A stretch of 42,469 nt of DNA from Pararcticibacter amylolyticus (GTDB lineage Bacteria > Bacteroidota > Bacteroidia > Sphingobacteriales > Sphingobacteriaceae). The notes below the pieces were generated by a model that worked only from the letters and a program-made list of their open reading frames with translations, was not told the origin of the DNA and searched no databases. The position numbers and the translations under genes are program-made. The stretch covers positions 67,420 to 109,888 of the forward strand of contig NZ_QEAS01000015.1 of the NCBI RefSeq assembly GCF_003130405.1. Direction: 5' to 3'. This document shows, piece after piece, positions 10,443-14,272 of this stretch. How positions within the stretch are numbered: the first letter of the stretch is position 1; each line of letters starts with the position of its first letter.

Positions 10443-10614
10443 CTCATGAATAAAAGAAAATCTGCATGTTATGAGTTTTTCTGAGCTGTTAGCACAGAAT
10501 AATGCCCGGAACTGAGGGACGGTGATTTTGCTGATGGATAAGGGGCATCTATTTGCTGATTGTAATAAAATATTTTAGACAAGCCCGGGTTGGCCGCCCG
10601 TGGATTATTTTCAA

Positions 10615-10622
10615 TAAGTTTG
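10615..10622 (+). promoter_or_regulatory. Candidate -7 element of the HMA-AraC gene
   Basis: TAAGTTTG matches TAnnTTTG exactly and ends 5 bases before the ATG at 10628, which would leave almost no 5' leader. A TTG at 10590-10592 is the nearest -33 candidate, with a longer than usual 22-base spacer. Confidence 0.4.
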
Positions 10623-10627
10623 CATTC

Positions 10628-11206
10628 ATGGCAGATCTTTTTATCAAAAATATGGTGTGTGCCCGCTGTATCCTTGTTGTAGAGAACGAGTTGACAAAAC
10701 TGGGGCTCCATCCGGTTAAAGTGGAACTGGGACACGCGGGACTGGAGGAGGAGATCCTGGATGGGGGAATGCGTGCGCTGGTGAGTGCGAGGCTCCATGA
10801 ACTGGGCTTCGACCTTCTGGACGATTCGAAAACGAAGATGATAGAGGCTGTAAAGGGAGTTGTTATCCAAAAGATACATCATTCTGAGAACCTCGATCTG
10901 AAAGTGAACTGGTCGGAAATTATCTCCGGTGAATTGCATCATGACTATGGCTACCTGAGCAAATTGTTTTCGTCTGTGGAAGGGATCACGCTGGAGCAGT
11001 ATATCATCCGTCAGAAAGTAGAAAAGGCTAAGGAGTTGTTATTTTATGATGAGCTTAATCTGAGTGAAATAGCGTACAGGCTTGGATACAGCAGTGTTCA
11101 GCACCTGTCATCTCAATTTAAAAGGGTAACGGGGCAAACCCCTTCGGAGTTTAAGACGTTAAGAAACGAGGGGACTTCAAGAAAACCCATTGACTCGCTT
11201 ATTTAA
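10628..11206 (+). CDS. AraC-type HTH regulator with N-terminal HMA-like CxxC domain
   Basis: A 192-residue protein. I choose the ATG at 10628; the frame extends upstream, but the extra 25 residues look non-conserved and would cover the candidate promoter. The N-terminus reads MADLFIKNMVCARCILVV, a heavy-metal-associated (HMA) fold signature with C11 and C14 and the spacing to a following LxxLG. Residues from about 95 form an AraC-type double helix-turn-helix, including YSSVQHLSSQFKRVTGQTPSEF, the second recognition helix. Coupling a metallochaperone-like CxxC to an AraC DNA-binding domain suggests a metal- or thiol-responsive regulator, but which ion or signal is not known. A LEA2-like lipoprotein gene follows 21 bases downstream and is probably co-transcribed. 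Confidence 0.85.
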   Translation: MADLFIKNMVCARCILVVENELTKLGLHPVKVELGHAGLEEEILDGGMRALVSARLHELGFDLLDDSKTKMIEAVKGVVIQKIHHSENLDLKVNWSEIISGELHHDYGYLSKLFSSVEGITLEQYIIRQKVEKAKELLFYDELNLSEIAYRLGYSSVQHLSSQFKRVTGQTPSEFKTLRNEGTSRKPIDSLI

Positions 11207-11227: not shown

Positions 11228-11842
11228 ATGAGGAACATTATTGCCGGAATATTTCTGTTGTCAGCTCTTTTGATGTCTTGTGGTATAGGAAGCCAGGTAG
11301 ACCGGCTGAAAGCACTTGAGCAGTGTTCTTTCGGCTTTCAGTCGGCCGATAGTGTCTACCTTGCCGGGAACGATGTGCCGAAACTCATCAGCCGGGGAGA
11401 GGCAGGATTGCTTGCGAATCCTTCGCTGGTACTGGCGATGCTGCAAAGGAAGATCCCGTTTAAGGCCCGGATACTGATACAGGTGCTGAATCCCGGACAG
11501 GAAGAAGCTGGTATAAGTGCGTTTGAATATAAGATTATGATCAAAGACGTTCAGCTTGCCGAAGGATATTTCGATAAACCGCTTGTTGTAAAGCCTGAAG
11601 GAGGTACAACGTTGGTTCCTGTAAAAATAGATACAGATCTCTACCCGGTACTTTCCAACAGCCGGAACCAGAAGGCGATAGCTGATTTCCTTTCCCAGCA
11701 AACTGAACAAATTGCTGTGGTTACGCTGAAGATCAAGCCAGCTTTTGATCTGGGCGAAAAGAAGATAAATTACCCCGGATATATTGATATTAGCAGGGAG
11801 ATCAGCAATAGGCAATTAAAGTCTTTCCTGGCAGCCCGCTAG
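11228..11842 (+). CDS. LEA type 2-like lipoprotein
   Basis: A 204-residue protein with a lipobox LLMSC that places the lipidated cysteine at residue 18. The body is a single beta-sandwich, with IPFKARILIQVLNPGQEEAG and a later KPEGGTTLVPVKI, as in the water-stress/LEA2 family. In bacteria these are usually small outer-membrane or periplasmic lipoproteins of unknown role. It sits 21 bases after the HMA-AraC gene on the same strand, so it may be under that regulator's control. The stop codon TAG overlaps the mntH stop on the other strand at the palindromic CTAG of 11839-11842. Confidence 0.78.
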   Translation: MRNIIAGIFLLSALLMSCGIGSQVDRLKALEQCSFGFQSADSVYLAGNDVPKLISRGEAGLLANPSLVLAMLQRKIPFKARILIQVLNPGQEEAGISAFEYKIMIKDVQLAEGYFDKPLVVKPEGGTTLVPVKIDTDLYPVLSNSRNQKAIADFLSQQTEQIAVVTLKIKPAFDLGEKKINYPGYIDISREISNRQLKSFLAAR

Positions 11843-13698
11843 CGGACAATCAGTACCGGGATCTTCACCTTGTGCCTGACAGTATCGAGGGTGCTGCCAA
11901 AGATAATGTCTTTAATTCCTCTATGGCCGTGTGCTGCCATTACAAGCAGGTCCATATTGTTGGCCTTTGCCAGGCGCGCGATGGCACTGGCCCTGTTTCC
12001 GTAGTCGATCAAAACAGAAGCTTTATAGCCCAGGTCTTCCAGGTTTGACTGATACTTCTTTAAATTTTGAAAGTCACTCTGGGTCTCAAAATCCATCACT
12101 TTTTCACCATGATAGGTAGCTCCCGCGCTGTCCACTACATGGATGAGGTAATAATGGGCGTTCTTCCCTCCCTGGATCAGGGCATTCCTGATTGTGTTCC
12201 TGTCGCGGCCAGAGAAATCTACCGGGACACCAATATGGGAATAAATAACTCCTTCGGGTGCTGAAATATCCGTTGCCTGTCCATACAGTGCATTGTATTT
12301 TTCTGTTCTTACTTTGTTGATCACCGGGTGTAGCGAAACATAGATAAGGAGGAGCAGGATGCCCAGCACTACCGGCAGTATAAATACATAAATCCACCAA
12401 TGGCTTCCTGAGGTATTGAACCAGTTGAGCACCTCTTCGAAAACTAGTTTCATATTGAGGACAACAATAACCAGGGCACTCAGCCATGCCAGTATTTTTA
12501 CCCAGGGTTTGATGGCAAACTCGCCCATTTGATTCTTGTCTGATGTGAAATGGATGAGGGGAATGACCGCAAACCCGAGTTGCAGACTGAGGACAACCTG
12601 GCTCAGTACCAGCAATTCGCCAAGAGCTTCTTCCCCGAAATAGAGGATTGTAAAGAAAGCGGGTATGATGGCGAGAAGGCGTGTGAGCAGCCGGCGCAGC
12701 CAGGGCTGGATCTTAAGATTCAGATGCCCTTCCATAATGATCTGTCCGGCCAGGGTGCCGGTGACGGTTGAACTCTGCCCCGCTGCAATTAAGGCAATGG
12801 CGAAAAGGGCAGGGGCCAGTGAGCCAAATATATTGTCGAGTAGTTTGTGAGCATCCTGTATTTGGGCTACTTCGTGATAGCCGTTCTTAAAGAATGCTGT
12901 TGCTGCCAGGATGAGAATAGACGCATTGACCAGAAACGCGAGATTTAGCGCTACTGTGGTGTCGATCAGGTTGAATTTGAGGGATTCCCGTATTCCTTCC
13001 GGCGTGCGTTCTATCTTCCGTGTCTGTACCAGGGAGGAATGAAGGTAGAGGTTGTGCGGCATAACCGTTGCACCGATAATTCCTATAGCGATATAAAGTG
13101 CGTCTCCGCTGAGAACTGAAGGCTCAAACCCCTTTATTACTTCCGGCAGCGAAGGCTCGACAATAAACATCTCCGCCAGAAAAGACAGGCCGACAATAAA
13201 CACCATGGATACAATGAAACTTTCCATCGACCGCATTCCTTTGTTTAATAAGAATAACAGGAGAAATGTGTCGAGGATAGTGATGGAAATACCCCAGATA
13301 AGAGGAAGTCCAAAGAGTAGTTGTAATCCGATCGCCATCCCGATTATTTCTGCCAGGTCGCACGCGATAATTGCTATCTGAGCCAGAGCAAAAAGCGGAT
13401 AGTTTGCCCAGGAGGCGTAAGTATTCCTGGATGCCTGTGCTAGATCGAGCCCTTTGACGATTCCCAGCCGTGCTGATAAAGATTGCAGAAGGAGAGCGAT
13501 GAGGTTAGACATGAGAAGTACCCAGATAAGCTTGTATCCGAACTGACTGCCCCCGGCGATATCCGTGGCCCAGTTTCCGGGGTCCATGTATCCCACACTG
13601 ACAAGATAAGCAGGTCCGATAAAAGCTAATAATTTGCGCCATCCTTTTTTGCCGGATGTCGTGACAGTTGAATGGACTTCTCCTAAAGATTCTCCCAT
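11839..13698 (-). CDS. mntH: Nramp divalent metal transporter fused to UspA domain
   Basis: A 619-residue protein, far longer than the 400-450 residues of standard MntH. Residues from about 20 to 460 carry the Nramp core with the TM1 metal site DPGN (39-42) and the TM6 motif MPH (213-215). From about residue 483 a universal stress protein domain follows, with HYYLIHVVDS and a nucleotide-loop sequence AHGHRGIKDIIFGST at about 589-603. Nramp proteins import Mn2+ or Fe2+ with protons; the UspA domain may bind ATP/ADP and modulate transport, which is inference. Fusions of this kind occur in Bacteroidota. The gene has its own promoter with an overlapping palindrome (13720-13750), and its 3' end abuts the LEA2 gene. 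Confidence 0.92.
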   Translation of the reverse strand: MGESLGEVHSTVTTSGKKGWRKLLAFIGPAYLVSVGYMDPGNWATDIAGGSQFGYKLIWVLLMSNLIALLLQSLSARLGIVKGLDLAQASRNTYASWANYPLFALAQIAIIACDLAEIIGMAIGLQLLFGLPLIWGISITILDTFLLLFLLNKGMRSMESFIVSMVFIVGLSFLAEMFIVEPSLPEVIKGFEPSVLSGDALYIAIGIIGATVMPHNLYLHSSLVQTRKIERTPEGIRESLKFNLIDTTVALNLAFLVNASILILAATAFFKNGYHEVAQIQDAHKLLDNIFGSLAPALFAIALIAAGQSSTVTGTLAGQIIMEGHLNLKIQPWLRRLLTRLLAIIPAFFTILYFGEEALGELLVLSQVVLSLQLGFAVIPLIHFTSDKNQMGEFAIKPWVKILAWLSALVIVVLNMKLVFEEVLNWFNTSGSHWWIYVFILPVVLGILLLLIYVSLHPVINKVRTEKYNALYGQATDISAPEGVIYSHIGVPVDFSGRDRNTIRNALIQGGKNAHYYLIHVVDSAGATYHGEKVMDFETQSDFQNLKKYQSNLEDLGYKASVLIDYGNRASAIARLAKANNMDLLVMAAHGHRGIKDIIFGSTLDTVRHKVKIPVLIVR

Positions 13699-13719
13699 AA
13701 AGCTTTACTTCTTGTTTTG

Positions 13720-13727
13720 CAAATCTA
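13720..13727 (-). promoter_or_regulatory. Candidate -7 element of mntH
   Basis: The minus strand reads TAGATTTG, a match to TAnnTTTG, ending 21 bases before the mntH ATG. It overlaps the first half-site of the inverted repeat at 13722-13750. Confidence 0.45.
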
Positions 13728-13750
13728 ATATTAAAATTAGATTAATCTAA
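13722..13750. promoter_or_regulatory. Candidate metalloregulator operator upstream of mntH
   Basis: Contains a perfect 14-base palindrome TTAGATTAATCTAA (13737-13750) and a further half-site AATCTAAT (13722-13729) that pairs with ATTAGATT at 13736-13743. The half-site resembles DtxR/MntR boxes, which are TTAGGTTAG-like. The repeat covers the mntH -7 region, where a repressor would block transcription. An Lrp autoregulatory site is the main alternative, because the Lrp gene diverges 52 bases away. Confidence 0.5.
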
Positions 13751-13801
13751 AAATAAAATATTATTTCAAATTGTTTTAAATTGGCAGAATAATTCTAAAT
13801 T

Positions 13802-14272
13802 ATGCCATACCAACCAGACAAAATTGATCTTCAAATTCTCAAAACGCTGCAGCAGAATGGCCGTATTACAAATCTGCAGCTTTCAACAGAAATCGGCCTC
13901 TCCCCGGCTCCGACATTGGAACGGGTACGAAAGCTTGAAAATCTCGGGATTATCAAGAGTTATCATGCGAGGGTAGACGAAGAAGAATTGGGTCTGGGGA
14001 TTAAAACATTTATCCAGATTCAGCTTGATTTTCATCAGAACAACACGATTCAGACTTTTGTTGACGAAGTAAAGAAAATTCGTGAAATCATCGAATGTCA
14101 CCATGTTACCGGTGGCTGCGACTTCGTTCTTAAGATCTATGTAAAGGATATTAAGGCTTACGAAAAGCTGATTATGGATAAGATCAGCAGGATAAGGGTG
14201 GTGAAGACGTTTCAGACGATGATGATTCTGTCTACCAGCAAAAGGGAGCCGGTGTTGCCGCTGGACTACTAA
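13802..14272 (+). CDS. Lrp/AsnC family transcriptional regulator
   Basis: A 156-residue regulator with an N-terminal winged HTH (DKIDLQILKTLQQNGRITNLQLS... to about residue 60) and a C-terminal RAM/ligand domain. The RAM domain contains CHHVTGGCDFVLKIYVKDI near residues 100-118, the G-x-x-D loop where effector amino acids bind. Lrp-type proteins form octamers and respond to amino acids such as leucine or branched-chain acids. The gene is divergent from mntH with 103 bases between the starts. The ligand cannot be assigned. It ends four bases before the long inverted repeat at 14277. Confidence 0.93.
   Translation: MPYQPDKIDLQILKTLQQNGRITNLQLSTEIGLSPAPTLERVRKLENLGIIKSYHARVDEEELGLGIKTFIQIQLDFHQNNTIQTFVDEVKKIREIIECHHVTGGCDFVLKIYVKDIKAYEKLIMDKISRIRVVKTFQTMMILSTSKREPVLPLDY

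Follow-up and report, generated by a model that had tools for sequence, protein, structure and literature searches.

The mntH–lrp intergenic region

The window (the whole stretch of 42,469 nt analysed here, from Pararcticibacter amylolyticus) carries a gene for an Nramp-type metal transporter, mntH, and, divergent from it, a gene for an Lrp/AsnC-family regulator, hereafter lrp (Table 1). The mntH product matches the Pfam Nramp and Usp domains at 439 and 79 bits, and it passes the NCBIfam MntH model with 574 bits against a cut-off of 430. The spacer between the two genes is 103 bp long and 83% AT. It contains the palindrome TTAGATTAATCTAA (14 bp; the window as a whole has one other perfect even palindrome of this length) and beside it an extra half-site, AATCTAA, at 13722–13728, which overlaps the sequence TAGATTTG on the mntH strand. 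A first-pass annotation of the window had described a perfect 14-base palindrome at the mntH promoter, lying between mntH and an Lrp/AsnC gene, with a third half-site overlapping the −7 element, and each of these particulars was borne out.

Table 1. Genes and sequence features at the mntH–lrp locus, in window coordinates
Feature	Position	Strand	Basis
mntH, Nramp Mn2+/Fe2+ transporter with C-terminal Usp domain; predicted target	11839–13698	-	Pfam, NCBIfam
Half-degenerate second box TTAGATTTGCAAAA, 22 bp from the first; intact half-site only 13722–13728	13715–13728	-	TTAG at +22, tandem boxes
Putative −7 element TAGATTTG of the mntH promoter, TAnnTTTG type	13720–13727	-	Sequence, published consensus
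Core operator box TTAGATTAATCTAA (predicted), form TTAG-N6-CTAA	13737–13750	.	Sequence, conservation at mntH, 11-genome alignment
Putative −33 slot, 19 bp upstream of the −7 element; its TTAG is the first half-site of the box	13747–13750	-	Geometry
AT-rich element TTTCAAATTGTTTTAAATTGG, partly conserved, nearer lrp	13764–13784	+	11-genome alignment columns
Lrp/AsnC-family regulator gene, divergent; unlikely binder of the box	13802–14272	+	Pfam

Taken alone, the palindrome is weak evidence of a binding site, because, among 20,000 Markov-shuffled versions of the spacer, 8.6% contained a perfect palindrome of 14 bp or longer. The genome scan proposed in the first-pass annotation was run on the 6.31 Mb genome: the exact sequence occurs once, at mntH, and there is no further copy within one mismatch. 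The scatter across the genome away from metal genes, which the first-pass annotation had named as grounds for refutation, was thus not seen for the exact palindrome. The core pattern TTAGRYNNRYCTAA likewise has one occurrence, whilst its reversed control has eight. Looser or weaker sites, which might have revealed a wider regulon in the source genome, were indistinguishable from background: TTAG-N6-CTAA was found 34 times and one-mismatch forms of TTAGRYNNRYCTAA 49 times, against 107 and 210 occurrences for the reversed patterns, which are a crude control as their letters may simply be commoner. The scan suggests that the regulon in the source genome comprises one strong site.

Two further features of the region deserve mention. 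The AT-rich element nearer lrp may represent the lrp promoter or a site for Lrp itself. Elsewhere in the window, an AraC-family regulator gene (10553–11206) encodes an N-terminal CxxC stretch (VCARC) that by eye resembles a heavy-metal-associated domain, and Pfam assigns AraC-type domains only. A tRNA search found none.

Conservation of the box upstream of mntH

At least 595 relatives of mntH were present in the genome contigs; the best 80 loci were retained and, with the window, made up a set of 81. Genes for DtxR and Lrp in these loci were found by phmmer, with the DtxR protein of the source genome (encoded on contig C117, see below) and the Lrp protein of the window as queries, and boxes were sought around the start of each transcription unit's first open frame, within 250 bp on its upstream side and 120 bp on its downstream side. 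Of the 81 loci, 66 had a TTAG-N6-CTAA box ahead of the transcription unit that contains mntH. Markov-shuffled upstream regions contained a box in a mean of 0.86 of 81 loci, with a maximum of four over 200 rounds, and only 25 such patterns occurred in the remaining 941,621 bp of the loci. The comparative evidence, together with the alignment described below, leads us to judge the palindrome real.

The frequency of the box varied with gene order. It was found in 46/50 dtxR–mntH operons, in all nine loci with the order mntH–dtxR, in one of the two with dtxR elsewhere in the locus, and in half of the 20 from which dtxR is absent, so that 10 of the 15 loci lacking the box belong to this last group. 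Two of the 15 (L029 and L072) have a shortened upstream stretch. A divergent lrp gene adjoins the transcription unit in 16 loci of this set, all of which carry the box, as do 50 of the 65 loci without a divergent lrp.

For seven of the 20 loci without dtxR, chosen by us and mostly box-bearing, the whole genome was searched for DtxR (the window, L023, L067, L071, L073, L083 and L087). Six of these genomes encode a DtxR protein elsewhere and carry the box at mntH; the seventh, L083, yielded no DtxR match and has no box. The genome of L023, Arcticibacter svalbardensis, is marked as belonging to the same genus as that of the window, which points to Sphingobacteriaceae as the family considered below. 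Another locus of the set, L055, lies on a contig titled as a Rhizobium sp. metagenome-assembled genome, and its mntH product is 59% identical to that of the window; it is probably a mislabelled or mixed bin.

At the family level, 74 of 81 genomes had an mntH match and 30 loci were fetched, a set that overlaps the previous one (L143 is the window, and L151 coincides with L023, with G039 and G004 sharing contig coordinates). The box was present in 26 of the 30, comprising 15/15 loci with dtxR upstream and 11/15 without; one of the four loci lacking it, L170, has a short upstream stretch. In an alignment of 11 genomes, 11 of the 14 box columns and eight of the nine columns of the third half-site were conserved in at least 10 rows, as were four of the eight columns between them. 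The corresponding figures for the flanks were 17/40 columns on the lrp side and 6/30 on the mntH side.

Two observations concern the rarity of the pattern. TTAG-N6-CTAA is approximately three times rarer than its backward form in the source genome, and for a looser pattern, TTAGRNNNNYCTAA, the reverse outnumbers the forward form in all 11 genomes scanned (the source genome and 10 relatives).

A probable second half-box interwoven with the putative mntH promoter

Amongst 91 unique boxes, a further TTAG was located exactly 22 bp downstream of the first base in 52. Other offsets averaged 0.31 occurrences, and the only offsets with four or more cases were 0 and +22. Of the 52 boxes with this extra TTAG, 22 had TAnnTTTG at +23 and the other 30 did not, and we therefore conclude that the +22 half-site is not merely the −7 element. 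The fourth half-site is degenerate: CTAA was retained in 1/52 boxes, and AA at +34/+35 was found in 44/52 (13.5% in a control stretch), an excess that may partly reflect A-rich letters before the ATG in some operons. No further TTAG at +22 was found in the eight unique boxes of Flavobacterium-type mntH–dtxR loci.

Full tandem boxes do occur. In two closely related genomes of the genus of the window (G074 and G039), two complete TTAG-N6-CTAA boxes lie 22 bp apart before a TonB receptor gene, and a third genome with that receptor (G060) has one box. The full tandem supports the view that the further half-site at mntH belongs to a second box, of which it is the half that remains intact.

The −33 element is of the TTG type, and geometry would place its slot at the first half-site of the box. 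The putative −7 element follows TAnnTTTG, given as the flavobacterial sigma-A −7 consensus, at −12 to −5 (PMC9723704).

The candidate regulator

That the cognate regulator would lie outside the window had been stated in the first-pass annotation, and this agrees with the position of our candidate on another contig. The genome encodes one DtxR-family protein (C117, 267021–267674), which was the single match both to PF02742, the metal-binding domain, and in a full-length search. Its domains over cut-off are Fe_dep_repress (46 bits; cut-off 26), Fe_dep_repr_C (106 bits; cut-off 27) and FeoA, the last in one copy. PF01325 gave three weaker matches besides the C117 protein, and the only one of them over cut-off, L003, looks from its sequence like an AsnC/Lrp protein. 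The C117 dtxR gene is positioned between cation/proton antiporter-like and smpB-like genes (named by resemblance), and no box was found at dtxR itself in the source genome or its five genus mates.

The C117 protein scored below the cut-off of each NCBIfam MntR/DtxR equivalog (NF047407, 158 against 350 bits; NF053665, 63 against 290; NF003025, 53 against 138; NF008273, 46 against 153). The best of these models is manganese MntR. Alignment to ScaR, in a mapping that assumes chain numbering one lower than published, places Glu103, Glu106 and His107 as in MntR, and Glu84, Asp127, His129 and Asp164 at the ScaR secondary-site positions Glu80, Cys123, His125 and Asp160. The paper from which the ScaR positions are taken lists the MntR metal ligands as Asp8, Glu99, Glu102 and His103 (PMC4805248). 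The C117 protein has Asn8 where Bacillus subtilis MntR has Asp8, and its assignment to manganese is accordingly tentative.

Apparent exchange of the regulator

Outside the clade of the window, 15 of 19 family loci have a different dtxR directly upstream of mntH, mostly with a divergent lrp in the locus, and the order dtxR–mntH is likewise seen in Pedobacter and Mucilaginibacter loci. Identity to the C117 protein is 42–48% for the DtxR proteins of the family that are linked to mntH. By comparison, a single DtxR match, of 72–85% identity, was obtained in each of ten other genomes: the five genus mates and, from two related genera (g7 and g12), five more. All ten have the bare layout lrp–box–mntH, with no dtxR directly upstream of mntH. 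A 60-row tree, built by a quick method with SH-aLRT values and no bootstrap, grouped 14 C117-type proteins, pre-labelled by at least 63% identity, behind a branch whose SH-aLRT support was 99%, separate from a clade of 17 mntH-linked family proteins.

All five g7 and g12 genomes carry the C117-type dtxR 2.3–2.7 kb downstream of mntH, and a box is present in its junction with a divergent gene encoding 741–759 residues. The one such product that was scanned is a TonB receptor, and a second reads alike. In the genus of the window, a related TonB receptor is found in three of six genomes, each time with one or two boxes in front; at E 1e-60, there is none in the source genome and two other genus genomes. 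Two Pedobacter genomes encode both DtxR types, each gene with a box, and the C117-type gene of a Saprospiraceae genome (G018) has no box.

It appears from the distribution of genes and boxes that the regulator was swapped while the operator stayed. In the simplest history, the linked dtxR beside mntH would have been lost in the lineage of the source genome, which spans three genera, and a distant relative, the C117 type, linked to a TonB receptor in two genera, would have taken over the same TTAG-N6-CTAA operator. Later, in the source genome, the receptor and autoregulation would have been lost, leaving one dedicated strong site, from whose two boxes, 22 bp apart, both the −33 slot and the −7 element may draw their letters. 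The direction of this sequence of loss, takeover and loss is drawn from layout counts rather than a reconciled tree. The joint reading, in which the operator outlived its regulator, a C117-type protein took over, the network shrank to one strong site, and operator and promoter became interwoven, is one that we favour with modest confidence.

Proposed mechanism and alternative explanations

Across Bacteroidota the box is conserved at mntH as well as at dtxR genes, and we therefore read the palindrome as the predicted operator of a metal-dependent repressor of the DtxR/MntR family (probability approximately 0.9), which sustains the metal-responsive repressor favoured in the first-pass annotation. 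We propose that, when Mn2+ (perhaps Fe2+) is plentiful, a metal-loaded dimer of the C117 DtxR protein would occupy the core box, and that a second dimer would probably occupy the half-degenerate box 22 bp downstream. Together, the two dimers would mask the promoter from the −33 slot through the spacer to the −7 element, exclude RNA polymerase and silence mntH; under metal starvation, the repressor would leave the DNA and uptake would resume. Here we infer binding, the identity of the metal, repression rather than activation, and the co-operation of two dimers.

Lrp, named in the first-pass annotation as a second candidate, might instead bind the palindrome, in autoregulation of lrp or in control of mntH. 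Lrp-type proteins bind imperfect palindromic AT-rich DNA, and every locus with a divergent lrp has the box (16/16 within the best 80 of at least 595 relatives plus the window). However, the box is kept in 50 of the 65 loci where no divergent lrp is present, and on this spread we reject Lrp as the binder. The box is also present at the dtxR/receptor junction, away from lrp, and before TonB receptors elsewhere in genomes of the genus, where the scan covered receptors and boxes, and a separate, partly conserved element lies nearer lrp. We consider an Lrp site very improbable. Still less credible is a chance palindrome in AT-rich DNA, or −33 and −7 promoter letters that happen to look palindromic. 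The spacer shuffles show how readily such a palindrome can arise, the half-sites do fall on the −33 slot and on the −7 element, and TAnnTTTG lies inside the box itself in 20 of the 91 boxes. The window alone would be insufficient to dismiss this reading. It is conservation that leads us to reject it, with boxes at 66/81 loci where 0.86 would be expected; moreover, several Flavobacterium loci keep the box although TAnnTTTG lies ~40 bp further downstream, and most boxes with a further TTAG (30/52) have no TAnnTTTG at +23.

Within the repressor reading itself, the operator could answer to Fe2+ and not Mn2+, or to both metals in opposite ways, as with MntR of Porphyromonas gingivalis, and this variant seems to us unlikely, but not negligibly so. 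In its favour, Nramp transporters carry both metals according to NCBIfam naming, the C117 protein has Asn8 in place of Asp8, and the P. gingivalis study reports that MntR binding is aided by Mn2+ and that its DNA complex is destabilized by Fe2+ (PMC4805248). Against it, the C117 sequence Glu103-x-x-Glu106-His107 is the MntR pattern, whereas the first of these positions is Cys in DtxR and in P. gingivalis MntR, and the closest NCBIfam model is a manganese one, albeit under its cut-off (158 against 350 bits).

Comparison with known metal-dependent repressors

The closest likeness is to the actinobacterial IdeR/DtxR proteins. IdeR dimers are described as binding the 19 bp TTAGGTTAGSCTAACCTAA in pairs, and a single dimer as able to bind a half site, for which the 14 bp consensus TTAGGNNNNCCTAA was proposed (PMC8464063). 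That consensus shares with the box described here the outer TTAG and CTAA with six bases between, and one dimer per site, as we predict. The boxes differ in that A predominates here at the fifth position, with G in some, and T or C at the tenth. The spacing differs too: a second box, where one is found, lies 22 bp on, whereas in the 19 bp double site the interval, as we read it from the consensus, is 5 bp. A double site of that kind, with a second TTAG at +5, does not occur in the window's box.

Within Bacteroidota, MntR of P. gingivalis shares an operon with its manganese transporter and binds the promoter of that operon, more tightly with Mn2+ (PMC4805248). It thus resembles our case as a DtxR-family regulator of this phylum acting at the promoter of its own manganese-transporter operon. 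The same source indicates that P. gingivalis MntR has two FeoA domains and Cys108, whereas the C117 protein has one FeoA domain and Glu103, and that the transporter is FB2 rather than Nramp. A word search of that text for 'motif', 'palindrom' and 'TTAG' gave no match.

MntR of B. subtilis differs from the C117 protein and its predicted operator in having another box sequence and in not being known to carry a FeoA domain. According to a preprint (PMC11275975), the block at the mntH promoter is the work of one dimer, and at mneP four dimers spread over 84 bp on adjacent 18 bp sites. The dimer at the mntH promoter and the alignment of dimers on adjacent sites are points of similarity to our proposal.

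The case is ordinary in kind, with a modest evolutionary twist; what is less usual is the tandem of two boxes 22 bp apart, its interweaving with the promoter, and the apparent swap of the regulator. We found no named Bacteroidota motif of this form in literature that consisted mostly of titles and the openings of abstracts and lay largely outside subscription journals. The box offers a concrete recognition motif for the MntR/DtxR proteins of Bacteroidota, from which manganese regulons become predictable from sequence. A swap with a retained operator, if true, would be a clean case of regulatory sites outlasting the genes that read them.

The analysis also points to a candidate metal-linked TonB receptor. 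The TonB-dependent receptor genes at L188 (3544–5766) and at L193–L195 have DtxR-type boxes in front, and in the related genera the receptor gene lies beside dtxR; the product is a candidate outer-membrane receptor for manganese (or iron).
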